Positions 1,814-35,763 of a stretch of DNA of 36,544 nt are shown piece by piece (position 1 is the first letter of the stretch; each line of letters starts with the position of its first letter). The stretch spans positions 1 to 36,544 of the forward strand of contig CACZIO010000041.1 in the NCBI GenBank assembly GCA_902781215.1. The letters are read 5' to 3'. A program made the translations under genes and the position numbers. Source of the DNA: an uncultured Lachnospiraceae bacterium (GTDB taxonomy: Bacteria > Bacillota > Clostridia > Lachnospirales > Lachnospiraceae). The notes beneath the pieces are model-generated. The model made no database searches, was not told where the DNA came from, and saw only the letters and a list, made by a program, of their open reading frames with translations.

Positions 1814-2147
1814 GCTCTGCAAGACTATAGATTTTGTTGCCTCTGCCCGTCCGCCATCCCCGGCGTATCTTCAAAACGTTCTCCGGGCCAGGTTCACATC
1901 GCGAAAAACGAAGTATTCCGCTCCGCGGCGCTGCTGCCTCTTCCCTGTCAACCAAGCTAGTAAAGATTGAAAAAAATGCTCGATAGCATTTTTTTCAATC
2001 AAGAGGTTTGCGTCGAAGCGCCGCAACCTCTGCCGGATCCCGTCGCCAAAATCACCAATTTCAAAGCCCTTATCTGATGAGGGACATCATGGTCGGCGCC
2101 TGATCAGGAGGTGTTCTCAGCAGAGCATACCAAATAACCATCTGCAC
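1814..2147. other. gene-free stretch between two terminators
   Basis: About 330 bp bounded by hairpin terminators at 1784 and 2148. It contains a composite palindromic repeat (1965-2031). I found no convincing ORF. A short frame reading MRDIMVGA then stop occurs around 2078-2104, and a good AGGAGGT sequence at 2106-2112 has no start codon at a usable distance. The stretch could be a degraded gene or a small RNA locus ending at the 2148 terminator; neither can be decided by eye. Confidence 0.4.
1965..2031. repeat. composite palindromic element, copy 1
   Basis: A perfect 16-bp stem (left arm 1965-1980, loop CGAT, right arm 1985-2000) has seven A on one arm and seven T on the other. It is followed at once by a second hairpin (AGAGGTT 2002-2008 with AACCTCT 2025-2031). 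The same order of stems occurs at 6868, and on the opposite strand at 24366 and 24713. This copy differs from the others by paired changes in both arms, so the base pairing is preserved. The A7/T7 arms mean the first hairpin could act as a terminator in either direction. Confidence 0.8.
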
Positions 2148-4127: not shown

Positions 4128-4382
4128 GTCTCCGAAGAAAATGTATTGATTTCAGGAGTATACTTCTATCATTTTAGCAGGGTGCTTCCCCGCATGCAAG
4201 AAAGGCAGAATGCCGGCAGAGGTAAAAGCATAGGTTACATATGGAATGGAAAAGGTGTATCATGTCTGTAAACACTCGTCGAGCAGTAAATCCACATGAT
4301 CGCTGTGGACACATTTTTCCTGCTGTTTTCATGTGCAGACTGTAGTATTAACCCAGCATGAAAAGAAAAAGGAGAGGCAGCT

Positions 4383-5639
4383 ATGAAAGGCGCACTTGAC
4401 GGATACAAGATCCTGGATTTCACAACGCTCCTGCCGGGCCCCTATGCCACGATGACCCTGGCGGACATGGGCGCCGAAGTGCTCAAGGTGAGCGGGCGCG
4501 ACAAATACGACCTGGTCGTCAACTGGCCGCCGGTCATCGAGGCCGCGCAGGTGACCGGCGCCCAGGCCTGGCTGGGGCGGAACAAGAAGACCATGTTCCT
4601 GAACCTGAAAAAACCCGCGGCGGTCGAGGCCGTCAAAAAGCTGGTCATGGACTATGACATCGTCGTGGAACAATTCCGGCCCGGCGTCATGACCAAGCTG
4701 GGCGTCGGCTATGAGCAGCTGCGCGAGGTCAATCCCCGCCTCATCTACTGTGCGATCACGGGCTACGGCCAGACCGGCCCCTTTGCCATGAAGGCGGGCC
4801 ACGACATCAACTACCTGTCCCGCGCGGGCATCGCCTGGGCGGCAGGCCGCAAGGCCGGCGGCCCCGGCCTCTACAATTTCCAAATCGCCGACGTCGCCGG
4901 CGGCTCCATGAACGCCGTCTCCAGCATCCTGGCCGCCATCATCTACCGGGAAAAGACCGGGAAGGGCCAGTTCATCGACGTCTCCATGCAGGACAGCGTC
5001 ATTCCCTTCAATTCCATGGACGGCGCCAGCTACTTCGCGGGCGGCCCCATGCCCATGCGCGAGTCGGGCCTTCTCAACGGCGGCGGAATCTACGACTTCT
5101 ACGAGACCTCGGACGGCAAATACATGAGCGTCGGCTCCCTGGAGCCCAAGTTCTTCGCCGCCCTCTGTGAGGGCATGGGCCATCCCGAGTGGAAGGACGG
5201 CAAAGTTCTCCGGACTGACGCCGCCATGGTCAAGGAGACCTTCCGCGCCGTCTTCAAGACGAAGACCCGCGACGAGTGGACAGCTGTCTTCACCGCCCTC
5301 GACGCCTGCGTCGAGCCCGTCATGGACCTCGACGAGGTCTGCCGGGACGAGCACCTGGTCAGCCGGGGCATGTGGCCTGAAGTCGAGGTCCCGATGAGCC
5401 GTTCAGACGCTGCTGCCCCTGCCGGATCATCAGCTGCCGGTCAGGGCACCTCGTCTGATCCGGACACTGCGGTTGCAGGCGCATCCGCCCCTGTCCGCAT
5501 CACTCAGATGGGCTGCCCCATGCACCTGTCCGAATGCCCGCCGCGCTACGACCACGCGGGCTACCCGGAAGGATATCACACGGAAGAAGTCCTGCAGTCC
5601 CTGGGTTACAGCCCGGATGAGATCAGGGATATGACCTGA
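4383..5639 (+). CDS. class III CoA-transferase fold enzyme, alpha-methylacyl-CoA racemase-like
   Basis: This 418-residue protein belongs to the CaiB/BaiF (class III CoA-transferase) family. The conserved N-terminal block LDFTTLLPGPYATMTLADMG and the family Asp (Asp170 in FQIADVAGGSM) are visible. It also carries His140 (GHDINYL), Asp170 and Glu255 (SLEPKFF), which match the catalytic His/Asp/Glu set of the mycobacterial alpha-methylacyl-CoA racemase with constant spacing. Formyl-CoA transferases lack that His. An epimerase acting on 2-methyl- or bile-acid-type acyl-CoA is therefore more likely than a CoA transferase, though the substrate is not readable. An Ala/Ser/Gly-rich stretch (about residues 343-370) interrupts the C-terminal part and looks like a late insertion. 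AGGAGAGGCAGCT precedes the start. It is a single-gene unit with a strong terminator. Confidence 0.88.
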   Translation: MKGALDGYKILDFTTLLPGPYATMTLADMGAEVLKVSGRDKYDLVVNWPPVIEAAQVTGAQAWLGRNKKTMFLNLKKPAAVEAVKKLVMDYDIVVEQFRPGVMTKLGVGYEQLREVNPRLIYCAITGYGQTGPFAMKAGHDINYLSRAGIAWAAGRKAGGPGLYNFQIADVAGGSMNAVSSILAAIIYREKTGKGQFIDVSMQDSVIPFNSMDGASYFAGGPMPMRESGLLNGGGIYDFYETSDGKYMSVGSLEPKFFAALCEGMGHPEWKDGKVLRTDAAMVKETFRAVFKTKTRDEWTAVFTALDACVEPVMDLDEVCRDEHLVSRGMWPEVEVPMSRSDAAAPAGSSAAGQGTSSDPDTAVAGASAPVRITQMGCPMHLSECPPRYDHAGYPEGYHTEEVLQSLGYSPDEIRDMT

Positions 5640-5805: not shown

Positions 5806-6801
5806 TCACCCCGCCGCGGAGATCTTGCACTTGGCCCGGAGCAGGTCGCGGAAGACATCACTGACCCCGTGATCGGGCAGGTTCCCGATGGCCTGCAGGG
5901 CGCGGTCCGCGTACATCTGCATGTCCGCCGCCGCGCGAGCAAGGCCGCCGGAGGTGGTGACCAGCGTCTTAAGACGGGCGGCATGTTCAAAGCCGAAATC
6001 CCCCTCCTCCGCGGCGTGAAGAAGACAGATGATCTCCGGTTTCGTCTGCCGGTCTTCCATCGCATAGAGGACAGGCAGGGTCATGATGCCCTCGCGGAAA
6101 TCCGCCTGCGTGAGTTTCCCTTCCTCATAGGCGTCCGAGACAAAATCCAGCAGGTCGTCGCGGATCTGGAACATGTAGCCGAAATTGATCCCGAGCTGCT
6201 CCAGCTGCAGCTGCATCTCCTCGCTGCAGCCGCTCTCCACGGCGCCTGCCATACAGGCCAGTCGACAGAGCGCAGCCGTCTTGCCATAGATATTGCGCAT
6301 ATATTGCTCGACCGTCGCCCCCTCGTTCCATCGACATTCCATCTGACCCAGCTCACCGACACACATGGCTTCCACAGCCTCGCCGACCATCTGTCCGACG
6401 CGGGCGAAGCCATCCCGGAACAGGCTCTGGACGATCCGGCTCAGGAGCAGGTCGCCGGCATAGACGGCCATGTCCTTGCCATACTTGGCCTGGGCTGTCG
6501 GCAGACCCCTGCGCAGCGGCGCGTCATCGACAATATCGTCATGAATGAGCGAGGCCATATGCACCAGCTCAACCAGGGCGCCCAGGCGACAGAGCTTGCT
6601 GCGGGCAGCCTCAAAATCCTTCCCGTATCTGCTGGCCATCAGCAGGAGCCTGGGCCGCAGGCGCTTTCCTCTGGACTGCTCCATATCGCGGAGGACCCTG
6701 CTGACAGCGCCCCCGTAACCGGGATCGCGCAGATACTCCGTCAGGTACAGCTCCACCTGCTCCATCTCCTGCTTCAGTTCCTTTTCCTCAAATTGGTTCA
6801 T
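5806..6801 (-). CDS. long-chain trans-polyprenyl diphosphate synthase
   Basis: This 331-residue all-helical protein shows both aspartate-rich motifs of trans-isoprenyl synthases: DDIVD (88-92) and DDLLD (215-219), plus GKRLRPRL (45-52) for pyrophosphate binding. It condenses isopentenyl diphosphate onto an allylic primer. The residues four and five positions before the first motif are small (Ala83, Ser84). In this family that leaves the elongation tunnel open, so a C30 or longer product (quinone side chain or similar) is more likely than farnesyl diphosphate. GGGGAACTG precedes the start. No other quinone or isoprenoid gene is in the window. Upstream lies a composite hairpin repeat (6868-7025), which would fall in a long 5' leader if the promoter candidate near 7135 is used. 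Confidence 0.9.
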   Translation of the reverse strand: MNQFEEKELKQEMEQVELYLTEYLRDPGYGGAVSRVLRDMEQSRGKRLRPRLLLMASRYGKDFEAARSKLCRLGALVELVHMASLIHDDIVDDAPLRRGLPTAQAKYGKDMAVYAGDLLLSRIVQSLFRDGFARVGQMVGEAVEAMCVGELGQMECRWNEGATVEQYMRNIYGKTAALCRLACMAGAVESGCSEEMQLQLEQLGINFGYMFQIRDDLLDFVSDAYEEGKLTQADFREGIMTLPVLYAMEDRQTKPEIICLLHAAEEGDFGFEHAARLKTLVTTSGGLARAAADMQMYADRALQAIGNLPDHGVSDVFRDLLRAKCKISAAG

Positions 6802-6867
6802 CAGTTCCCCTTCATGCTTCGTGCCATGATCCTGCTCACAAGCTCACTGCCATGCCGGAGCACGTAA

Positions 6868-7025
6868 GAGTGAAAAAAACGCTCGATAGCGTTTTTTTCA
6901 CTCCGGATGTTTGTGACGGAGCACAAACATCCTGTGATGCCAACAAAAAATCGCCTCCGCGAGTTTTTCGTTGGCGATGCCTGCGCACTTCGTGCTCCGG
7001 CATGCTGTGGAAGTGCGCAGGCATC
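6868..7025. repeat. composite palindromic element, copy 2 (complete)
   Basis: Four hairpins occur in order: a perfect 16-bp stem with A7/T7 arms (6868-6883, loop CGAT, 6888-6903); an 11-bp stem (6905-6915 with 6922-6932); a near-perfect 16-bp stem (6939-6954 with 6959-6975); and a 15-bp stem (6976-6990 with 7011-7025). A 31-nt block (6974-7004) is found exactly, as reverse complement, in copy 3 (24265-24295). The spacer TGATGC between the second and third hairpins is also shared with copies 3 and 4. No protein is encoded here. Confidence 0.85.
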
Positions 7026-7570
7026 GCTTACTCCTCCATTTTCCGTGTCCTGCAGCTGTAACTCACCGAAAAATACATTCTGTCTTTCCGGATTGTACAA
7101 CATGTGCAAAATACGAATCCTTTTTGAGCCGGCCATTATACAATTTACCCTATTTTTGTCTGTCATTCAACCGCTGTACGACAAGATGTACCATGTTGCC
7201 TACACTAACCAGATGTTGACAATCTCCCCGCCTGCCTCATCCCTATGGGCAGTGTATGGTGCCATCCATAGTGTCCTTCGATGGTAAAAAATACCCGCAG
7301 GCCATGGCTGCAGTTTTTGCAGTCATGATCTGCGGGTTTGATCATTTCATCAAATCGCTGCTTGTTTGCAAGAAATCGCGTTGCCGCTCTTTCCGCCATG
7401 TCCCTCACCAGAGCAGCACATGCGCCAGGGAGTGAGGCTCAAAAGACGTTTGGACTGCCTCGCGGCACATACCTCCGGGGGTTGTTGCATTAGCTGAAAA
7501 GTTCAGCTAGGCAATAGCCCCTTTAAATCGGGCCAGAGGGCCGATTATTTTTATCGACCTTTATTACAAC
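7026..7570. other. intergenic region with hairpins, no supported gene
   Basis: On the minus strand a TATAAT (7140-7135) could serve the polyprenyl synthase gene with a leader of about 330 nt. A perfect 8-bp palindrome (TAGCTGAA AAG TTCAGCTA, 7491-7509) and a hairpin followed by ATTTTTAT (7526-7553) lie near the right end. A minus-strand frame at 7205-7399 (GTG 7408 or ATG 7399; contains DCKNCSHGL) reads like a protein fragment, but I do not recognise it and its ribosome binding site is weak. The region may hold the remnant of a lost gene or mobile element. Confidence 0.4.
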
Positions 7571-11460: not shown

Positions 11461-11480
11461 TTTTCTGTCATCGGTCGTGG

Positions 11481-11640
11481 CGGCACATCCGCTGAGGTAC
11501 TCATCAGAAACTGCTTCTTCCAGGGGCAGAGCCTCTCAGAGGATTGCGCCTCCTACAGGGCGGAACATCCGCTGTGGTTCTCGTCAGCAACTGCTTCTTC
11601 CAAGGTCTATACTCCTCAAAGTATCGCGCCTCCTACAGGG
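11481..11640. repeat. two tandem 80-bp units containing the galK 3' end
   Basis: Units 11481-11560 and 11561-11640 differ at about 16 of 80 positions. The second unit contains the last 25 bp of galK (11616-11640). The first repeats them, so that on the minus strand RPVGGAIL-stop is encoded again at the equivalent place. The rest of each unit is untranslated sequence behind the gene. This is a tandem duplication of a gene end with its trailer. Confidence 0.85.
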
Positions 11641-23876: not shown

Positions 23877-24254
23877 TCACTCGAGGATGTGCTCCATACC
23901 CTTTTCGATGATGGTGCGGACGTGATCATCGGCCAGATAATAGATGATCTGCTTGCCCTCCCTGCGGCCGCTGACCAGCCGGGCCTGTTTGAGGAGCCGC
24001 AGCTGGTGCGAAATGGCTGACTGGGTCATATTGAGGGTTGCCGCCAGGTCGCACACACAGATATCCGCCTCAAAAAGAGCAAACAGGATCCGGATCCTGG
24101 TCGTATCCCCAAAGGCCTTGAAGAGCTCCGCCAGGTCATAGAGCCTGTCCTCCGGCGGCATCTGCTCGTTCACCAGCTGGACCTTGTCCGCATGGACCTC
24201 TTCTTCATCACAGCATTCGATGCCGTGGGGCATCATTTTGACTTCATTATCCAT
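23877..24254 (-). CDS. ArsR/SmtB-family metal sensor, CadC-like
   Basis: This 125-residue winged-helix repressor releases DNA on binding metal. Two metal sites can be read: an alpha-5 zinc site with the exact D-x-H-x10-H-x2-E spacing (Asp109, His111, His122, Glu125), and an alpha-3N site from ICVCDLA (Cys66, Cys68) plus N-terminal Cys14/Cys15. Both together are seen in CadC-type sensors of Cd, Pb and Zn. The recognition helix region reads MTQSAISHQLRLLKQARLV. It is the first gene of the operon and probably controls itself, the HMA protein and the ATPase. AGAGGTAAGA precedes the ATG. A composite hairpin element lies immediately upstream, leaving little room for a close promoter; I could not find the operator. 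Confidence 0.92.
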   Translation of the reverse strand: MDNEVKMMPHGIECCDEEEVHADKVQLVNEQMPPEDRLYDLAELFKAFGDTTRIRILFALFEADICVCDLAATLNMTQSAISHQLRLLKQARLVSGRREGKQIIYYLADDHVRTIIEKGMEHILE

Positions 24255-24264
24255 TCTTACCTCT

Positions 24265-24401
24265 CATGCCGGAGCACGAAGTGCGCAGGCATCGCAAACG
24301 AGAAATTCACAAAGGTGATTTCTCGTTTGCATCAGGGGAGGTTTGTGCTCTGGCACAAACCTCCGGAGTGAAAAAAACGCTATCGAGCGTTTTTTTCACT
24401 C
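24265..24401. repeat. composite palindromic element, copy 3, directly upstream of the metal sensor
   Basis: On the minus strand, in order: the 16-bp A7/T7 stem (24366-24381 with 24386-24401), the 11-bp stem (24337-24347 with 24354-24364), a 17-bp stem (24294-24310 with 24314-24330), then a 31-nt block (24265-24295) identical in reverse complement to 6974-7004 but without its partner arm. The element ends 11 bp before the sensor start codon. Confidence 0.85.
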
Positions 24402-24612
24402 TTCTTTCCTTGTGTCATCCGGACTTTCTCTTTCAGTAAAACATATGAGCAATTATTCATATGTTTGTCTATATACTACGCCCTGCCCACACTGCTGTCA
24501 AGTGCTATTCGAAAAATACTGCAAAGCTGGTCTTTGGACAAAAAAAACGGGGCCTCCACATCATGACTTGTGAAAGCCCCGGGTTCCGGACGTGTTCCGG
24601 TTCTCTTTCCGA
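24402..24612. other. intergenic region between the two composite elements
   Basis: It contains a 10-bp AT-rich palindrome (AAACATATGA 24438-24447 with TCATATGTTT 24457-24466) and a terminator (24541-24580). No gene is supported. Any promoter of the metal operon should lie here on the minus strand; I cannot identify a convincing one. Confidence 0.4.
24540..24580 (-). terminator. terminator of the PAP2 operon
   Basis: On the minus strand CGGGGC pairs with GCCCCG (24547-24552 and 24575-24580), with inner TGTG/CACA pairs, followed by T7-8. Confidence 0.7.
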
Positions 24613-24616
24613 CCAT

Positions 24617-24744
24617 GCCGCTCGCCAGAGCGGCAGCGCAAGGAGAAAGCCCGCAAGGGTTTCTCCGCTGTTCGCATCACAGGATGCTTGTGCTTCGTCA
24701 CAAGCATCCTGTGTGAAAAAAACGCTATCGAGCATATATTCAAC
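24617..24744. repeat. composite palindromic element, copy 4, at the end of the PAP2 gene
   Basis: Read on the minus strand: a decayed A7/T7 hairpin (24713-24726 with 24731-24744), a 14-bp stem (24679-24692 with 24699-24712), a stem around GGAGAAA/TTTCTCC, then GCCGCTC/GAGCGGC (24617-24634). One arm of the first hairpin overlaps the stop codon of the PAP2 gene (24740-24742), so the element begins within the gene end. Confidence 0.8.
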
Positions 24745-25324
24745 TGTTTTCTCTGCCTGCCTTTTCTGTCCGCTTCACAGCGTCCTTCGCTGCGACTGGA
24801 AAGAAGTGGTCCAGGATCCTCTTGGCGAGAAAAGCAAAAAAGATGCCCATGAGGGTCCCGACCAGCACATCGGTCGGGAAGTGCACGTAGAGGTAGAGGC
24901 GGGACAGGGCGATCAGCGCCGCGAGGATCACGGCAGGGATCCCGATCCGCCGGTCATACCGCAGCATGATCACGCTGCTGGCAAAGCTGGCCATGGAGTG
25001 GCCCGACGGGAAGGAATAATCGTCCGGGATCCCGACCAGCATGTCTATATTCTGATTAATCCAGCAGGGCCGCGGCCGCGCCACGGCATGCTTGAGGATG
25101 ATATTCCCGAAGAGGACGCAGAGCACCAGGCCGACAAACATGGTTGCGCCCAGGCGGCGGTGTTTTTTCCACAATAGAAAGACCAGGGTCAGCGCGATCC
25201 AGAACCAGCCGGCCTCACACAGGAAGGTCACCTTCGGTGCAAACCAGTCAAGCCAGGGCGTCCGCAGATTGGCCTGGATCCAGTCCAGGATCCGAAAATC
25301 CGTCTGCTGTATCATCTCAAACAT
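24740..25324 (-). CDS. PAP2-family membrane phosphatase
   Basis: This 194-residue protein has about five membrane segments and the three PAP2 motifs: KxxxxxxRP (Lys78...Arg85-Pro86), PSGH (106-109) and SRxxxxxHxxxD (Arg142...His148...Asp152). Such enzymes remove phosphate from lipid phosphates such as undecaprenyl diphosphate or phosphatidic acid on the outer face of the membrane. AGGAGG lies 10 nt before the start. It is the third gene of a minus-strand operon, 25 bp behind the membrane protein gene. The last codons overlap a composite hairpin element. Confidence 0.92.
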   Translation of the reverse strand: MFEMIQQTDFRILDWIQANLRTPWLDWFAPKVTFLCEAGWFWIALTLVFLLWKKHRRLGATMFVGLVLCVLFGNIILKHAVARPRPCWINQNIDMLVGIPDDYSFPSGHSMASFASSVIMLRYDRRIGIPAVILAALIALSRLYLYVHFPTDVLVGTLMGIFFAFLAKRILDHFFPVAAKDAVKRTEKAGRENS

Positions 25325-30214: not shown

Positions 30215-31435
30215 ATGAACACATCCGACTCCCTGGCACTGTCCTGCTATCAGCAGGTCGCAGTGCTCGACAAAGAACACGACGTCATCCTGGTTCAGCA
30301 CAGCACGACCGGCTCCATATATGTCCGCAAGCGCCTGTCCGTCTACAATATCGACGTCTACCGCTATCTTCTTGACCACCACATCAGAGGGATCCCTGCA
30401 ATCGAGGAGATCGCCTGTCAGGACAAGGACCTGATCGTGATCGAGGAATATATCAGCGGACGGACCCTGCAGGCAATCCTGGACAACGGAAATATGTTTT
30501 CTGCTTCTGAAGCGGTTCGTATTGTGCAACAGCTCTGCATGATCCTGCGGGAGATGCACAGCGCGGAGCCCCCGATCATTCACCGTGATATCAAGCCCTC
30601 CAATATCATCATCACGCCAGATGAAACCATTCGCCTGCTGGACATGAACGCAGCCCGGTTTTCCGCCGTCGACAAGGCGGAGGATACGGCACTGCTGGGC
30701 ACCTACGGCTATGCCGCGCCGGAGCAGTTCGGGTTCGGATCCTCAAACGCCCAGACCGACCTCTACTCCGTCGGCGTCCTCCTGTGTGAAATGATCACGG
30801 GGCATCTGCCCAAAGAAGGCCTTCCGGAAGGAAAAGTTGGAGAGATCATCCGGAAATGCACCCGCATCGATCCGGAGGACCGCTACGCGTCGGTCGACGA
30901 CCTGCTGGAAGTCCTGCACAAGTTCCTGGCTTCTACTGCCCCCATCGACGCGAAGCCAGCTCAGGAGACAGCTCGGGAGATAAATCAGGAGATTCCCCTG
31001 CGTCCCTCCGGCGAGGCCGTCCTGTCTAGTCCAGCCACTTTCACGAAAGCTGCCTCTGTCCCTCCTTCCGGATACGAAGCTCCTGGCCCTGCCCCGGTCC
31101 GCCCCAAAGCCCTTCCGGGCTTCCGCACCGGCAGCCCCACCAATATGGCCATTGCCATCATCGGCTACGCGCTCCTGTTTTACATTGGCCTCACACTGAC
31201 CAGCAGCAACGCGGCATCACCTGTCTTTCTCCTCATGGAGAAGGCAGCCATCATCCTCTGCGGCCTGTTTGTCGTCTTCTTCACCTGCGATTACAAGGGG
31301 ATGTGGGGGCTCTTCAGGATTGACAGGATCCGGTCCCCCAAATGGAAAACAGCCGCCATCATCCTGATCGATTCGGCGGCTGCCCTGATAAGTGTTCTGT
31401 TGACCGGTTTTGCGGCCTCGATGGCCGGAATCTAA
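30215..31435 (+). CDS. atypical membrane-anchored Ser/Thr protein kinase 1
   Basis: This 406-residue protein has an N-terminal kinase domain and a C-terminal membrane module. Kinase features: ATP-binding Lys in YVRK (Lys39), catalytic loop HRDIKPSN (123-130), APE (168-170) and TDLYSVGVLL. Two features are abnormal: the glycine-rich loop is missing (YQQVAVLDKEHDVILVQH stands in its place), and the metal-binding DFG is DMN (143-145). The catalytic Asp and metal-binding Asn are kept, so activity is possible. After a Pro/Ala-rich linker, about three membrane segments (from residue 309) follow the motif LPGFRTGSP. GGAGAAAGACTC precedes the start. It is the first of three paralogs, separated from the second by an opposite-strand regulator gene. 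Confidence 0.88.
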   Translation: MNTSDSLALSCYQQVAVLDKEHDVILVQHSTTGSIYVRKRLSVYNIDVYRYLLDHHIRGIPAIEEIACQDKDLIVIEEYISGRTLQAILDNGNMFSASEAVRIVQQLCMILREMHSAEPPIIHRDIKPSNIIITPDETIRLLDMNAARFSAVDKAEDTALLGTYGYAAPEQFGFGSSNAQTDLYSVGVLLCEMITGHLPKEGLPEGKVGEIIRKCTRIDPEDRYASVDDLLEVLHKFLASTAPIDAKPAQETAREINQEIPLRPSGEAVLSSPATFTKAASVPPSGYEAPGPAPVRPKALPGFRTGSPTNMAIAIIGYALLFYIGLTLTSSNAASPVFLLMEKAAIILCGLFVVFFTCDYKGMWGLFRIDRIRSPKWKTAAIILIDSAAALISVLLTGFAASMAGI

Positions 31436-31561
31436 GTGTTCTACTGACAGTTTTTACAGACTCGGTGGCCGGAATCTGAAGTCAGATTTCACCTTTTGTT
31501 TGTGCGATATTATACCTGAGCGTCAAAAATCACCCGCTGCCCATTGCTCCGCGGAGAATGT

Positions 31562-32008
31562 TCAGCTCTCCCGCAGCTGCGGCTGGCCGTTCTGCTCCAG
31601 CAGGCGGTTGATCTCAGCGGGTTCGCGGGTGCCGGAGCTGATGGCGGAGATCAGGACGGCATCCCGGGGGAAACGAGCGTAGAGGGGAGACATGCCGTAG
31701 ATCTTCAGGGCCCGCTGGGTCTCATCCAGCGTGAATCCCGCGCCCAGGCAGAGCTTGAGGATCGTGTCCCGCTGCCGGGTGTGCTTCTCACCGGAGATCA
31801 GCTTATAGCCATAGCCCTCGGATACATCCGCGCGCAGGAAGACCTCCTGGAAACGCAGGCCTTTTTCCCGCACGGTCGACCGCATATAGGCGGCAAAGGG
31901 ATTGTCCTGCTCCAGGACCTCCTCCGCATTGTTCTTAAAATATGTATCCAGATGCTCCGGTTTTGTTTTTTTCAGAATATTGGTCAGGGTGTTGGTCGTT
32001 TTTTTCAT
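31562..32008 (-). CDS. XRE-like helix-turn-helix protein embedded in the kinase cluster
   Basis: This 148-residue protein has a lambda-repressor-type HTH in its middle (about residues 45-80: LRFQEVFLRADVSEGYGYKL then ISGEKHTRQRD) and a helical C-terminal part with LCLGAGFTLDETQRALKIYG. It looks like a DNA-binding regulator, although it may also act as a kinase partner or substrate; proteins of this type occur beside Ser/Thr kinases in Clostridia as far as I recall. GGAGATAATCA precedes the ATG. It is transcribed divergently from kinase 2, sharing a 118-bp intergenic region, and converges with kinase 1. Confidence 0.78.
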   Translation of the reverse strand: MKKTTNTLTNILKKTKPEHLDTYFKNNAEEVLEQDNPFAAYMRSTVREKGLRFQEVFLRADVSEGYGYKLISGEKHTRQRDTILKLCLGAGFTLDETQRALKIYGMSPLYARFPRDAVLISAISSGTREPAEINRLLEQNGQPQLRES

Positions 32009-32047
32009 TGATTATCTCCGCATCTCCGGTCGCCCGGCGCCCCCTAG

Positions 32048-32056
32048 TGATAAAAT
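32048..32056 (+). promoter_or_regulatory. possible extended -10 promoter of kinase 2
   Basis: TGATAAAAT lies in the 118-bp space between the divergent regulator and kinase 2. No convincing -35 is seen. Confidence 0.4.
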
Positions 32057-32126
32057 AGTATTGATGGCCAAAAGGCGATTCACCAGTCAGCCGCAGCAAT
32101 CGTTCAGCTCATCCGGAGGATTTCCG

Positions 32127-33233
32127 ATGAACATTTCCGACAGATCCGTGCTCTCCTGTTATCGGGAGATCGGCGAGATCAACGCCGAACACGGCGTGAC
32201 CCTTGTACAGCATACCACAACCGGCCTTGTCTATGTCAAAAAAATCCTGACCGTCTACAACACGGAGGTCTACCTCTATCTGCGCGACCACCACATCAAG
32301 GGAACGCCCGAGGTCCTGGAGGTCGTGGAGTCGGACGGACAGCTGACCGTGATCGAGGAATACATCAGCGGCCAGACACTGCGCGAGATCCTGGACCACG
32401 GAAATATTTTTCCGGAGGAGGACGCAGTCGCAATCATTATGCAGCTCTGCCGGATCCTGCAGGAAATGCACCGGGCCCAGCCGCCCATTCTGCACCGCGA
32501 CATCAAGCCCTCCAACATCATCCGGACCTCCGGCGGCAGGATCTGCCTGCTGGACATGAACGCCGCCCGCCGTATGTCTCCGGGCAAAGCGCAGGACACG
32601 CAGCTGATCGGCACCGTCGGCTATGCGGCGCCGGAGCAGTACGGCTTCGGCACCTCCAGTATCCAGACAGACATTTATGCCACCGGCGTCCTGCTCTGCG
32701 AGCTGGTGACCGGCCACCTCCCCAAAGACGGAATCCCGCGCGGGAAGATCGGCCGCATTGTCAGCAGGTGCACGCGCATCGACCCCGCGGACCGCTACAA
32801 GGATATGGCAGAGCTCCTGAGCGCCCTGTCCGCACTCGGCAGCCGGCCCGCACTCGATCCGAGCATGAGGGCCGGCAACTCCTCCGGCTTCCGCTATATG
32901 CTCCCGGGCTTTCGCAGCGGCAACCCGCTCCACTATATCATCGGCGGATTTGCATATTTCGCGCTCCTGGCCCTCAGTCTCACCTACACGGCGGAGGGTC
33001 TTCCCGCCGGCAGCTTTGTCCTGTGGACCGAGCGCCTGCTCTACCTGGTCTGCGGCTTCGGGATCCTGCTCTTCACCGGCAACTATATGGATGTCTGGCG
33101 GAGCCTGGGTCTCACCCGGATCCAGAACACCCTTCTCCGCCTGGCCGCCGTCCTGGCCATCGATTTCTTTCTGGCAGGCGTCATGACCACCTTTATGATC
33201 TTTGCGGCCATGATCCTCAGGCCTTTCTACTGA
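32127..33233 (+). CDS. atypical membrane-anchored Ser/Thr protein kinase 2
   Basis: This 368-residue paralog of kinase 1 has its motifs at identical positions: Lys39 in VYVKK, HRDIKPSN (123-130), DMN (143-145) instead of DFG, and APE (168-170). The glycine-rich loop is again replaced (YREIGEINAEHGVTLVQH). The linker to the membrane module is shorter than in kinase 1. The module begins with LPGFRSGNPLHY and includes a conserved block, LLYLVCGFGILLFTGNYMDV. GGAGGATTTCCG precedes ATG 32127; the in-frame extension to 31902 runs over the divergent regulator gene and is rejected. It probably phosphorylates proteins near the inner membrane face. No extracellular sensor domain is present, so any signal must be sensed by the membrane segments or by partners. 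Confidence 0.88.
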   Translation: MNISDRSVLSCYREIGEINAEHGVTLVQHTTTGLVYVKKILTVYNTEVYLYLRDHHIKGTPEVLEVVESDGQLTVIEEYISGQTLREILDHGNIFPEEDAVAIIMQLCRILQEMHRAQPPILHRDIKPSNIIRTSGGRICLLDMNAARRMSPGKAQDTQLIGTVGYAAPEQYGFGTSSIQTDIYATGVLLCELVTGHLPKDGIPRGKIGRIVSRCTRIDPADRYKDMAELLSALSALGSRPALDPSMRAGNSSGFRYMLPGFRSGNPLHYIIGGFAYFALLALSLTYTAEGLPAGSFVLWTERLLYLVCGFGILLFTGNYMDVWRSLGLTRIQNTLLRLAAVLAIDFFLAGVMTTFMIFAAMILRPFY

Positions 33234-33394
33234 GCGTGCATGGCAGATTGCTGACCGCCGGCTATGCGCCAAATTCTGTATTTGCCTTGCACAATGGTAA
33301 AAAGAAACATCAGGCGTGGTTGCAGCCAGCCGATACCATTTTCCTTGAATAATAGCAAAAAGCATGCCGGACCGATTTCCTACAGGAGGTCTCC

Positions 33395-34657
33395 ATGACT
33401 GAGTCAGAAAAGTCCATACTCTTTTCCTGCCGGGAAATCGCCGTTATGGAACCGGACCGCGGCACCACACTCGTACAGCACGAGCCCACCCGCAGGATCT
33501 ATGTCAAAAAAGAACTCCCTGCCCGGAGCGCAGGCGTCTACCGCTGGCTCCGGCACCATTACATCGAAGGGGTTCCTGAAGTGGTGGAGGTGGTCAATGT
33601 TCCAGTCGCCACGATACCCGGAGAAGCTGGAAAGACCAGAGAATCCGGGCAGCCCGTAAACAGCACAAGCGTATCCCGTCTGACTGAATCTCCGTTTTCT
33701 TCTATCGAATACGCCCTCGAGGAATATGTCAGCGGCCAGACTCTGCGCGAGATCCTGGGCAACGGGAATCTCTTTCCGGTTGAGGAAGCTGTCGACATCA
33801 TGGAACAGCTGTGCCGGACTCTGCAGGCCCTCGGAAACGCCAGGCCTCCGATCACGGGCTGTGACCTGGATCCTGCCAACATTATCCTCACTTCGGATGG
33901 CCTTGTCCGCATCCGCGACCTGCGCAGCGCCGGTCAGACATTCGGTCAGACATTCTCTGACATGTCTGACAATCCACTCCCACCGGTCAGTAAAACCGGC
34001 CGGGCCAGACGCTCCAAAGTGGGAAACACTGACTTCTCCAACGGGCACGTGAAGTCTTTGCAGACCGACCTGCGTGCTCTCGGCGGTCTTTTTTGCCAGC
34101 TGATCACCGGACACCTGCCCGGGAACGAACTGCCCGGCGGAAAACCCGGCCAGATCATCCGCAGATGCATGGAAAGCCATCCATCAAAACAATATCCCGA
34201 CCTGCAAGGCCTTCTGCGGGACCTCGATGCCTGCCGGCCCCACCCGACCGTCGACCACAGCATCACCTCCGACAGCGATGCAGCTGACGCGGCTCCCCGG
34301 AAACATCCCTGCCTGCTGCCCGGCTTCCGCAGCGGCAACCCGCTCCACGTCCTGGCTGCTCTCTTCGCCTACATCCTTCTCATCTGGCTGAGCCTGACCT
34401 TTACCCTGGACAAGTTCCCGCCCGGCTGGCAGATGTGGGTCGAGCGCCTGGTCTTCTTTCTCTGCGGGTCTGTCATTCTCCTCTTTACAGGCAACTACAT
34501 GGATGTCTGGCGCCATCTGCGGATCACGAAGATCCGGACCACCCTGCTCCGGCTCCTGGTCGTGCTCATCATCAATGCCGCTCTCTTCATGCTCTCCATC
34601 CTGGCCATCATTTTCACCGGCCTCGCCCTGGGCGTCTACCACTCCAGCCTGTTCTGA
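33395..34657 (+). CDS. pseudokinase paralog 3 with conserved membrane module
   Basis: This 420-residue third paralog keeps the start (LVQHEPTRRIYVKKEL), EEYVSGQTLREILGNGN and the membrane module (LPGFRSGNPLHV, then LLFTGNYMDVWRHL) but has lost catalysis. The loop HRDIKPSN is GCDLDPAN (155-162), DMN is DLR (175-177), and the APE segment is replaced by a polar stretch. An extra 38-residue linker (about 68-105) interrupts the N-lobe. Lys38/39 and the loop Asp and Asn remain, so nucleotide binding cannot be excluded. AGGAGGTCTCC precedes the start. Retention of a full-length open frame and of the membrane part suggests it works as a partner or regulator of kinases 1 and 2 and is not simply decaying. 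Confidence 0.85.
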   Translation: MTESEKSILFSCREIAVMEPDRGTTLVQHEPTRRIYVKKELPARSAGVYRWLRHHYIEGVPEVVEVVNVPVATIPGEAGKTRESGQPVNSTSVSRLTESPFSSIEYALEEYVSGQTLREILGNGNLFPVEEAVDIMEQLCRTLQALGNARPPITGCDLDPANIILTSDGLVRIRDLRSAGQTFGQTFSDMSDNPLPPVSKTGRARRSKVGNTDFSNGHVKSLQTDLRALGGLFCQLITGHLPGNELPGGKPGQIIRRCMESHPSKQYPDLQGLLRDLDACRPHPTVDHSITSDSDAADAAPRKHPCLLPGFRSGNPLHVLAALFAYILLIWLSLTFTLDKFPPGWQMWVERLVFFLCGSVILLFTGNYMDVWRHLRITKIRTTLLRLLVVLIINAALFMLSILAIIFTGLALGVYHSSLF

Positions 34658-34894: not shown

Positions 34895-35677
34895 ATGACC
34901 AGGACTGAAGATAAAGACTCCCGCCGCGTCACAGGCAATGAAACTCCCCCGAAAATGCCGAAGGGAGACCCGCGGAAAGTGCCGGAAGCAAACCCTAAGG
35001 AACAGTCGGGCGGTCTTCTGAGCGGCATTTCTCTCTCCACGTACAAATATTCCTATGAGGAGCCTCCTGTTTCCATGCTGCATGAAAATGCCCCCTACTA
35101 CGGGATGCAGGAGGACGACACGATCCATACACTGGAGGACTACTACGCCCTGCCGGATGAGCGTCGTGTCGAACTGATCGACGGTCGCTTTTTTGAAATG
35201 ACGGCGCCCCGTGCAATACACCAGGCTGTCCAGATGAAACTTGCCAATCGTTTTGAAAACTACCGCCGGACAAAAAAGGGCGGAAAAGACTGCCAGGTTT
35301 TTCCTGCACCCTTTGATGTCCAGCTGGACAGAGACCAGTACACCATGCTGGAGCCCGACATCAGCATCATCTGCGACAGAGACAAGATTCAGGGTTTCGG
35401 ATGCTATGGCGCTCCGGACATGATTGTGGAGATCCTGTCCATCTCCACCCGGTCCAAAGATATGTATACCAAACTCAGCAAATACAAGAATGCCGGCGTC
35501 CGGGAATACTGGATGGTGGATCCCCTCAAAAAAAAGGTTATCGTCTATCATTTTGAAAACGGAGACGAGATTGCACTGTACGGCTTCGACGCAAAGATAC
35601 CGGTCGGCATCTCCGGCGGAGAGCTGGTTATCGATTTTGCGGAAATCTATGACGAGATCCGTTACCTGTACGATTGA
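34895..35677 (+). CDS. Uma2-family (DUF820) PD-(D/E)xK nuclease-fold protein
   Basis: This 260-residue protein has a polar N-terminal stretch (1-75) and a Uma2 domain. RVELIDGRFFEMTAP (91-105), His109, EPDISIICD (Asp155), APDMIVEILS (Glu179) and YTKLSKYKNAGVREYWMVDP (191-210) form the expected restriction-nuclease-like core. Uma2 proteins are abundant in cyanobacteria and some Firmicutes; their function is mostly unknown, with nuclease activity or a mobile-element link suspected. AAAGGAGGATTACAACC precedes the ATG, and the promoter is strong. The last 43 bp are repeated twice directly downstream, and an IS605-type remnant follows. Confidence 0.88.
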   Translation: MTRTEDKDSRRVTGNETPPKMPKGDPRKVPEANPKEQSGGLLSGISLSTYKYSYEEPPVSMLHENAPYYGMQEDDTIHTLEDYYALPDERRVELIDGRFFEMTAPRAIHQAVQMKLANRFENYRRTKKGGKDCQVFPAPFDVQLDRDQYTMLEPDISIICDRDKIQGFGCYGAPDMIVEILSISTRSKDMYTKLSKYKNAGVREYWMVDPLKKKVIVYHFENGDEIALYGFDAKIPVGISGGELVIDFAEIYDEIRYLYD

Positions 35678-35763
35678 TTATGCGGTAATTTATGGCGGGA
35701 TCAGCTGCCTGTACGATTGACTCTACGGAGATCTATGGCGAAATCAACTGCCTGAGCCAGGCA
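35635..35763. repeat. three tandem 43-bp units derived from the uma2 3' end
   Basis: Units 35635-35677 (inside the gene), 35678-35720 and 35721-35763 have an exact 43-bp period. Each contains a version of GCGGAAATCTATGACGAGAT and the segment CCTGTACGATTGA, which is decayed in the last unit. Conceptually they read DFAEIYDEIRYLYD, then YAVIYGGISCLYD, then STEIYGEINCLS, each ending at or near a stop codon. The copies have diverged, so the event is not recent. Confidence 0.85.

Follow-up and report, generated by a model that had tools for sequence, protein, structure and literature searches.

A family of folded, probably mobile four-hairpin repeats near translation-start-like sites in Lachnospiraceae

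The stretch of DNA analysed here (the window) is the 36,544-nt contig C41 of a 3.33-Mb draft genome (G000) of an uncultured Lachnospiraceae bacterium, and it carries four copies, A to D, of a composite repeat. Copy A is a full unit of type a at 6868-7013 on the plus strand (154.6 bits under the covariance model); its left neighbour is a polyprenyl synthetase gene on the minus strand (5806-6801), and it lies outside the start region of any parallel gene. Its hairpin 1 (6868-6903) has 16 bp, the loop CGAT and a start-codon-like GTG at unit positions 3-5. Hairpin 2 (6905-6932, 11 bp) has, in and beside its loop, CGGAGCAC, a stretch that complements the 3' arm of hairpin 4. Hairpin 3 (6940-6974, placed by folding) is the variable part, with nested hairpins in some other copies, and hairpin 4 (6977-7003) belongs to a 31-nt end block common to copies A and C. 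This block (GCGATGCC...GGCATG), which a preliminary description had reported as identical in two distant copies, is real and corresponds to hairpin 4 of type-a units. Copy A in turn interrupts an inverted hairpin 4, of which the left half lies at 6850-6867 and the right half at 7013-7027 (both minus strand), and whose intact form, CATGCCGGAGCACGTAAGTGCGCAGGCATC, is found on contig C36 (locus L027). The end at 7025 given previously for copy A therefore takes in host sequence, namely the far half of the split hairpin.

Copy C, also a full unit (24256-24401, minus strand; 156.4 bits), stands immediately 5' of the start codon of an ArsR-family gene (23877-24254, minus strand; PF01022), with a palindrome that by eye resembles an ArsR operator on one side and the ArsR gene start on the other. 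Copy D (24605-24746, minus strand; 101.2 bits) begins at the end of a PAP2 gene (24740-25324, minus strand; PF01569) and is a chimera of a type-a hairpin 2 and a type-c hairpin 4, with a damaged hairpin 1. Copy B (1965-2111, plus strand; 60.2 bits) has an intact hairpin 1 and a nearly intact type-b hairpin 2, and is decayed from hairpin 3 onwards. All four copies had been recognised before, but the two reported at 24265-24401 and 24617-24744 proved to lie on the minus strand, and the limits given here are those set by the model. Over 139 nt, copy A (6866-7004) is 88% complementary to copy C (24265-24403). The three copies that were folded, A, C and D, gave z-scores of -11.0, -11.7 and -5.5. 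A 14-base core of hairpin 1 matches the window 11 times when up to 3 mismatches are allowed, where 1.83 matches are expected and none of 100 shuffles had as many; with at most 1 mismatch it has 28 strand matches in the genome and none for a reversed-pattern control. Elsewhere in the window there are other repeats: three adjacent open reading frames at 30215-34657 that have repeated segments in common, 71-81% identical to a reference copy, and look like tandem paralogues, a 43-nt head-to-tail repeat in three copies at 35630-35758, and an 80-nt head-to-tail repeat in two copies at 11479-11638.

The unit is about 145 nt long and runs from hairpin 1 (16 bp) through hairpin 2 (11 bp), a linker containing TGATG or GATC, hairpin 3, which may hold nested hairpins, and hairpin 4 to a tail (e.g. 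GGTCGGAAAG) that is often Shine-Dalgarno (SD)-like. In arrays, the following unit starts directly behind the tail of the preceding one. Hairpins 2 and 4 come as matched types a, b and c in the window's genus, and chimeras such as copy D exist. For comparison we used two alignments, A3 with 93 distinct copies and A5 with 56 copies found in 14 other genera (18 genomes); site L131 is in both. Hairpin 1 is nearly perfect, 97.6% of its cells being paired in A3. Its loop reads YGAT in 66 of the 72 A3 copies with a clear ungapped hairpin 1, and in 47 of the 56 A5 copies by model columns; an ungapped finder returns YGAT in 14 of the 37 A5 copies with a clear hairpin, a low count because many A5 stems carry an extra base. 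The possibility that hairpin 1 is an intrinsic terminator was rejected from its sequence: the T run forms part of the stem, with paired bases after it, and several copies have no long T run. A nested hairpin module, ATTTCAAAGCCCTTATATGTAAGGCTTTGAAAT, recurs, as such, as a variant or in part, in the units at L105, L060, L099 and L006 and in the window at 1965-2111; other units hold a second nested module, GGACAAATGCTTTGCATTTGTT, and in G008 a long near-perfect hairpin immediately follows a unit (L119:936-1000).

A covariance model built from 17 copies (R1) gave 116 matches at E<=1 in the host genome, with 150 of 1275 first-look candidates scored; the weak matches include antisense echoes of the palindrome, and 64 matches reach E<=1e-5, so that the further genomic copies to be sought by such a search do exist. 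Among 41 genomes, the host included, 17 had matches at E<=0.01, four of them (G008, G010, G014 and G015) with 50-56 each; 10 of the 24 other genomes of the genus had none under stricter filters. A second model (R2), run on 392 genomes of the order, matched 29 genomes in 19 of 174 genera and in two families, its counts per genome being lower bounds because only 8 candidates were scored in each. In a named collection, 51 stretches carry the same hairpin, all of them also matched by R2 at E<=1e-5; they come mostly from uncultured Lachnospiraceae metagenome-assembled genomes (MAGs), plus Candidatus Eisenbergiella merdigallinarum, and isolate names such as RUG suggest that many are rumen MAGs. Phage and plasmid collections gave no blastn match with copy A as query, and viral contigs no exact match for one hairpin-1 pattern.

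The paired arm changes on which the preliminary description rested hold across the family. Counted as sequences rather than events, in an alignment fitted to the model, A3 has 93.1% of its 4481 cells paired and two-sided changes at 51 of 51 modelled pairs (shuffled mean, 36.3), with 893 two-sided cells against 215.5 (sd 14.5) after shuffling; 0 of 500 shuffles were as high, and sliding the partners gave at most 153. Counted and fitted in the same way, A5 has 96.9% of cells paired, two-sided changes at 47 of 51 pairs and 482 two-sided cells against 129.2 shuffled, again with 0 of 500 as high. Selection on the folded form, as proposed earlier, is the simplest reading of these changes. A strand-specific RNA constraint is expected to favour G.U, whereas recent neutral decay or a DNA-level constraint is not. 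Mispairs number 67 G.T against 80 A.C in A3 and 39 against 36 in A5, and single mispairs have no wobble preference in either alignment. These near-equal counts do not separate RNA from DNA folding, and they also fit a process at the DNA level by which the arms are kept perfect.

A further pairing links separate parts of the unit. The loop of hairpin 2 and the 3' arm of hairpin 4 are complementary across several sequence types in both alignments. The longest complementary run in A3 averages 6.71 nt, against 5.07 (sd 0.17, maximum 5.54) over 500 permutations of hairpin 4 and 4.19 with letters shuffled; it reaches at least 6 nt in 63 of the 93 copies and 7 nt in 39, and falls below 6 nt in 30. 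In A5 the mean is 7.68, against 5.78 permuted (maximum 6.52 of 300) and 4.01 letter-shuffled, with runs of at least 7 nt in 40 of the 56 copies. The match is short in some copies, at 3 nt in both copy D and L049. The A5 matches differ in their letters (e.g. CCGGAGCGT, TTTCTGAGC and CCGAAGCGC), and since the match recurs with letters that change from one lineage to another, common descent of one sequence alone is insufficient to explain it.

The suggestion that the elements move or recombine is borne out by empty orthologous sites, the nested copy A, a copy within a riboswitch, tandem matches and chimeric units. The site of copy C has no model match at that place in the regions of 20 relatives (elsewhere in the interval G011 retains weak remnants, and a partial match in G015 lies, by its position, beyond the gene). 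Likewise, two further units are missing at orthologous sites, the one at C4:39820 in G010 and G014 and the one at C4:53873 in G018, G014, G008 and G011. From the nesting of copy A in a hairpin 4 whose intact form is known, its junction can be set at AA|G; no more than 2-3 nt are repeated there. On contig C37, a unit (41584-41756) is inserted within a match to the cobalamin riboswitch aptamer (L006:1324-1714; 63.4 bits over the whole model); as far as sequence can tell, this riboswitch is split in the host by the unit. The same unit lies directly 5' of GATGAAGCC, a start-like context (AAG-GATGA) that is yet no gene start, which favours a sequence preference at insertion and not only selection after it. 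Comparison of copies found no fixed target-site duplication of the kind that, together with terminal inverted repeats, marks a MITE of a known transposon; the ends resemble direct SD-like repeats. In some copies, 10-16 nt that include the SD are common to the left flank and the right end (at least 10 nt in 13 of 47 copies from other genera, less in the rest), and the similarity of the two ends is copy-specific (7.53 against 6.36 over the 47 copies, with 0 of 500 within-genome permutations as high). Duplication or exchange of an SD segment is therefore likely in some insertions, with no fixed rule.

The earlier reading missed where the units lie: many of them occupy translation-start-like sites, often with a stop codon or SD at the left and a start codon at the right. 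When neighbouring genes of the A3 copies were called with a trained codon model, 88 of the 93 could be placed, a set that includes a few copies from another family. Both neighbours are parallel to the unit in 62 of these (++; against 7 +-, 6 -+, 6 -- and 7 with one side uncalled). A same-strand start lies within 30 nt downstream in 32 of the 88. On the upstream side, 28 have a same-strand stop at no more than 30 nt, and in 14 the upstream reading frame terminates at the unit's own stop (positions 4-6). In these copies, which stand for the window's own genus, tails match the SD pattern in only 15 of the 32 near-start cases, against 13 of the 56 others. For the other genera, 53 of the 56 A5 copies were examined (28 ++, 6 +-, 4 -+, 1 -- and 14 with a side uncalled). 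A same-strand start within 30 nt is found in 33 of these and NTG at unit positions 3-5 in 50 (in a separate set of rows, 79 of 107), and the upstream frame terminates at the unit's stop in 1. SD-like runs occur at the left in 42, at the right (an 18-nt search stretch) in 49 and on both sides in 39 of the 53, against 9% of random 14-mers from the same loci. A typical right end there is ...GGAATGGAGGTTAGT|ATG and a typical left end SD-NTTA|GTGTGAAA. Because the unit often brings its own ribosome-binding site, genes beside units are probably still translatable.

Taken together, the family is real, widespread and folded, and it is undescribed within the literature and database searches made. From sequence comparison, we think it probable, and hold with some confidence, that the units are non-autonomous mobile elements of about 145 nt, present in Lachnospiraceae and at least one further family of the order, which settle at translation-initiation sites or look-alikes of them (AAG-N-RTGA). 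The folded single strand, as ssDNA or RNA, would be recognised by a mobilising enzyme encoded elsewhere. Insertion between an SD and its start codon may be tolerated because, as we propose, the tail supplies the downstream gene with a new SD, and the NTGA at the left end of the unit could provide a stop/start overlap.

Other explanations must be set against this one. The units could instead be intercistronic RNA elements serving the host, in which the transcribed fold and its loop-arm pair set mRNA processing, stability or downstream translation. Such a role would fit the orientation of most units parallel to genes, the SD-like run that ends units in other genera with a start codon soon after it, and the conserved loop-arm pairing. 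We nevertheless consider it unlikely: the mispairs lack a wobble preference, and dozens of copies per genome, empty orthologous sites, nesting, tandem arrays and a split riboswitch indicate spread rather than a regulon. It is also rather improbable that the complementarity is kept by DNA-level arm correction, through templated quasipalindrome repair or gene conversion, with the fold itself functionless. The equality of G.T and A.C mispairs and the near-perfect arms of hairpin 1 agree with this idea, but it leaves three features unexplained: the YGAT loop, the four-hairpin order common to the genera, and the match between the hairpin 2 loop and hairpin 4 arm, which are separate, non-nested segments.

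The frequent NTG in hairpin 1, and the SD-like run before it in other genera, also bring to mind a cassette like the MIRUs, which insert at start codons with a -4 coupling (PMC12548453, in the portion drawn on here), and in which a short leader frame starting at this NTG would deliver ribosomes to the next gene. We find this very unlikely, as no frame is kept open: the NTG frame is open through the unit in 50 of 107 rows and the next frame in 42 of 107. A small protein gene was rejected as well: although the short peptides that the NTG frame encodes in hairpin 1 resemble one another, no frame is maintained. Least credible of all is a REP/RAYT reading, in which a Y1 transposase would move the units as palindromic repeats. 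The units are indeed dispersed, palindromic, intergenic and of high copy number, Y1 genes are present in the host genome, and on contig C82 an isolated 13-mer that resembles a unit tail but belongs to no unit (L033:928-940) occurs upstream of a partial Y1 transposase gene. But the RAYT-type transposase that the preliminary description suggested looking for gains no support. None of the 11 Y1 loci examined contains a unit at E<=1, and one of them pairs Y1 with an IS605-like OrfB/TnpB gene. The GTAG/CGTC tag is absent, the left-flank base counts of 71 non-tandem copies reading AA|GAGTG. Across the genus, Y1 and elements are out of step: G021 has 13 element matches and no Y1 match, while G012, G013, G019 and G020 have 2-3 Y1 matches each and no element matches. 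More generally, Y1/RAYT, reverse transcriptase and IS110, the families tried as mobiliser, were rejected, since in coarse presence tests on the 25 draft genomes of the genus none of them tracks the element counts.

Returning to mobile elements that settle at start-like sites, one may speculate further, at low confidence, that they are guided by nucleic acid and aimed at translation starts. In this scheme the hairpin 2 loop would serve as the guide. It would base-pair with the right end of the element itself (the hairpin 4 3' arm), and possibly also with target DNA that contains an SD; insertion would then put a fresh SD in front of the gene. The first of these pairings is supported by the loop-arm complementarity described above. 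For the second, the copy-specific resemblance between the two ends is no more than a hint. The repeat family extends over many Lachnospiraceae genera, rises above no Rfam threshold in the units scanned, and combines strong covariation with a long-range pair. Its units are placed where a gene is easily broken. It would offer hundreds of natural insertions in which to study how a parasite survives at gene 5' ends and whether such units are put to use in bacterial operons. A further task that the family clearly defines is to search for its missing mobilising enzyme.

The preliminary description knew of no element with this layout, and database comparison agrees: in Rfam scans of the window and in 38 locus scans (L113 twice), no family exceeded its curated threshold on a unit. 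The above-threshold matches there were one tRNA and one SRP RNA, both outside units, while the L006 riboswitch surrounds one; mir, leader and other matches were sub-threshold. One sub-threshold family is TD-2 (RF03162), which has a similar spacing of three hairpins when read on the opposite strand. It matches the antisense strand of units below threshold (L113 at 40.9 bits, L204 at 37.8, and four matches on G391 units at E 4e-4 to 5e-3), reached its gathering score of 48.7 in none of the 14 genomes searched, gave nothing at E<=1 in the host genome, and produced sub-threshold matches in a Lactococcus lactis control genome as well. We read these matches as a look-alike architecture, though distant kinship is possible. 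The main text of PMC2864571, in the part covered here, does not mention TD-2. A sub-threshold match to Clostridiales-1 at L132 (28 bits, 4309-4458) was set aside, as it lies outside both model matches and within another local repeat; in that locus (G015), a different block (CAGACGATGCTCGCATCAGGCTGTTCGCAGG...) occurs twice about 133 nt apart (4336-4550), with the weak match over its first copy. Titles and abstract openings in the literature, where subscription journals are thinly covered, report no such element in Lachnospiraceae.

Among known repeats, the units share with REP, BIME and REPIN sequences their character as high-copy intergenic palindromes. The units are, however, longer and composite, form head-to-tail arrays, and have neither a RAYT link nor the GTAG/CGTC tags given for REP-type repeats in the portion of PMC3733652 consulted. 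By description rather than sequence, they also resemble bcr1 and other stem-loop repeat families, dispersed intergenic repeats with common predicted folds surveyed in 40 genomes (PMC2267715); the parts of that survey covered here name no Lachnospiraceae genome. The pneumococcal BOX elements, as presented in part of PMC3049150, are modular, folded and intergenic, carry a variable internal module and insert into one another, all of which, again by description and not by sequence, applies to the present units. BOX elements are over-represented between convergent genes (Table 1 of the same paper), whereas our units lie mostly between co-directional genes. MIRUs, in the account of PMC12548453 drawn on above, are apparently mobile and insert at start codons, probably leaving the gene there translatable, and many of the units described here likewise insert at or near start codons, parallel to genes. 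Compared by description, the two differ in that the MIRU carries a reading frame coupled at -4 nt and the present units keep none open, and in that four covarying hairpins and a loop-arm pair are features of our units. On these comparisons the behaviour of the family seems nearest to that of MIRUs, and its modular make-up nearest to that of BOX.
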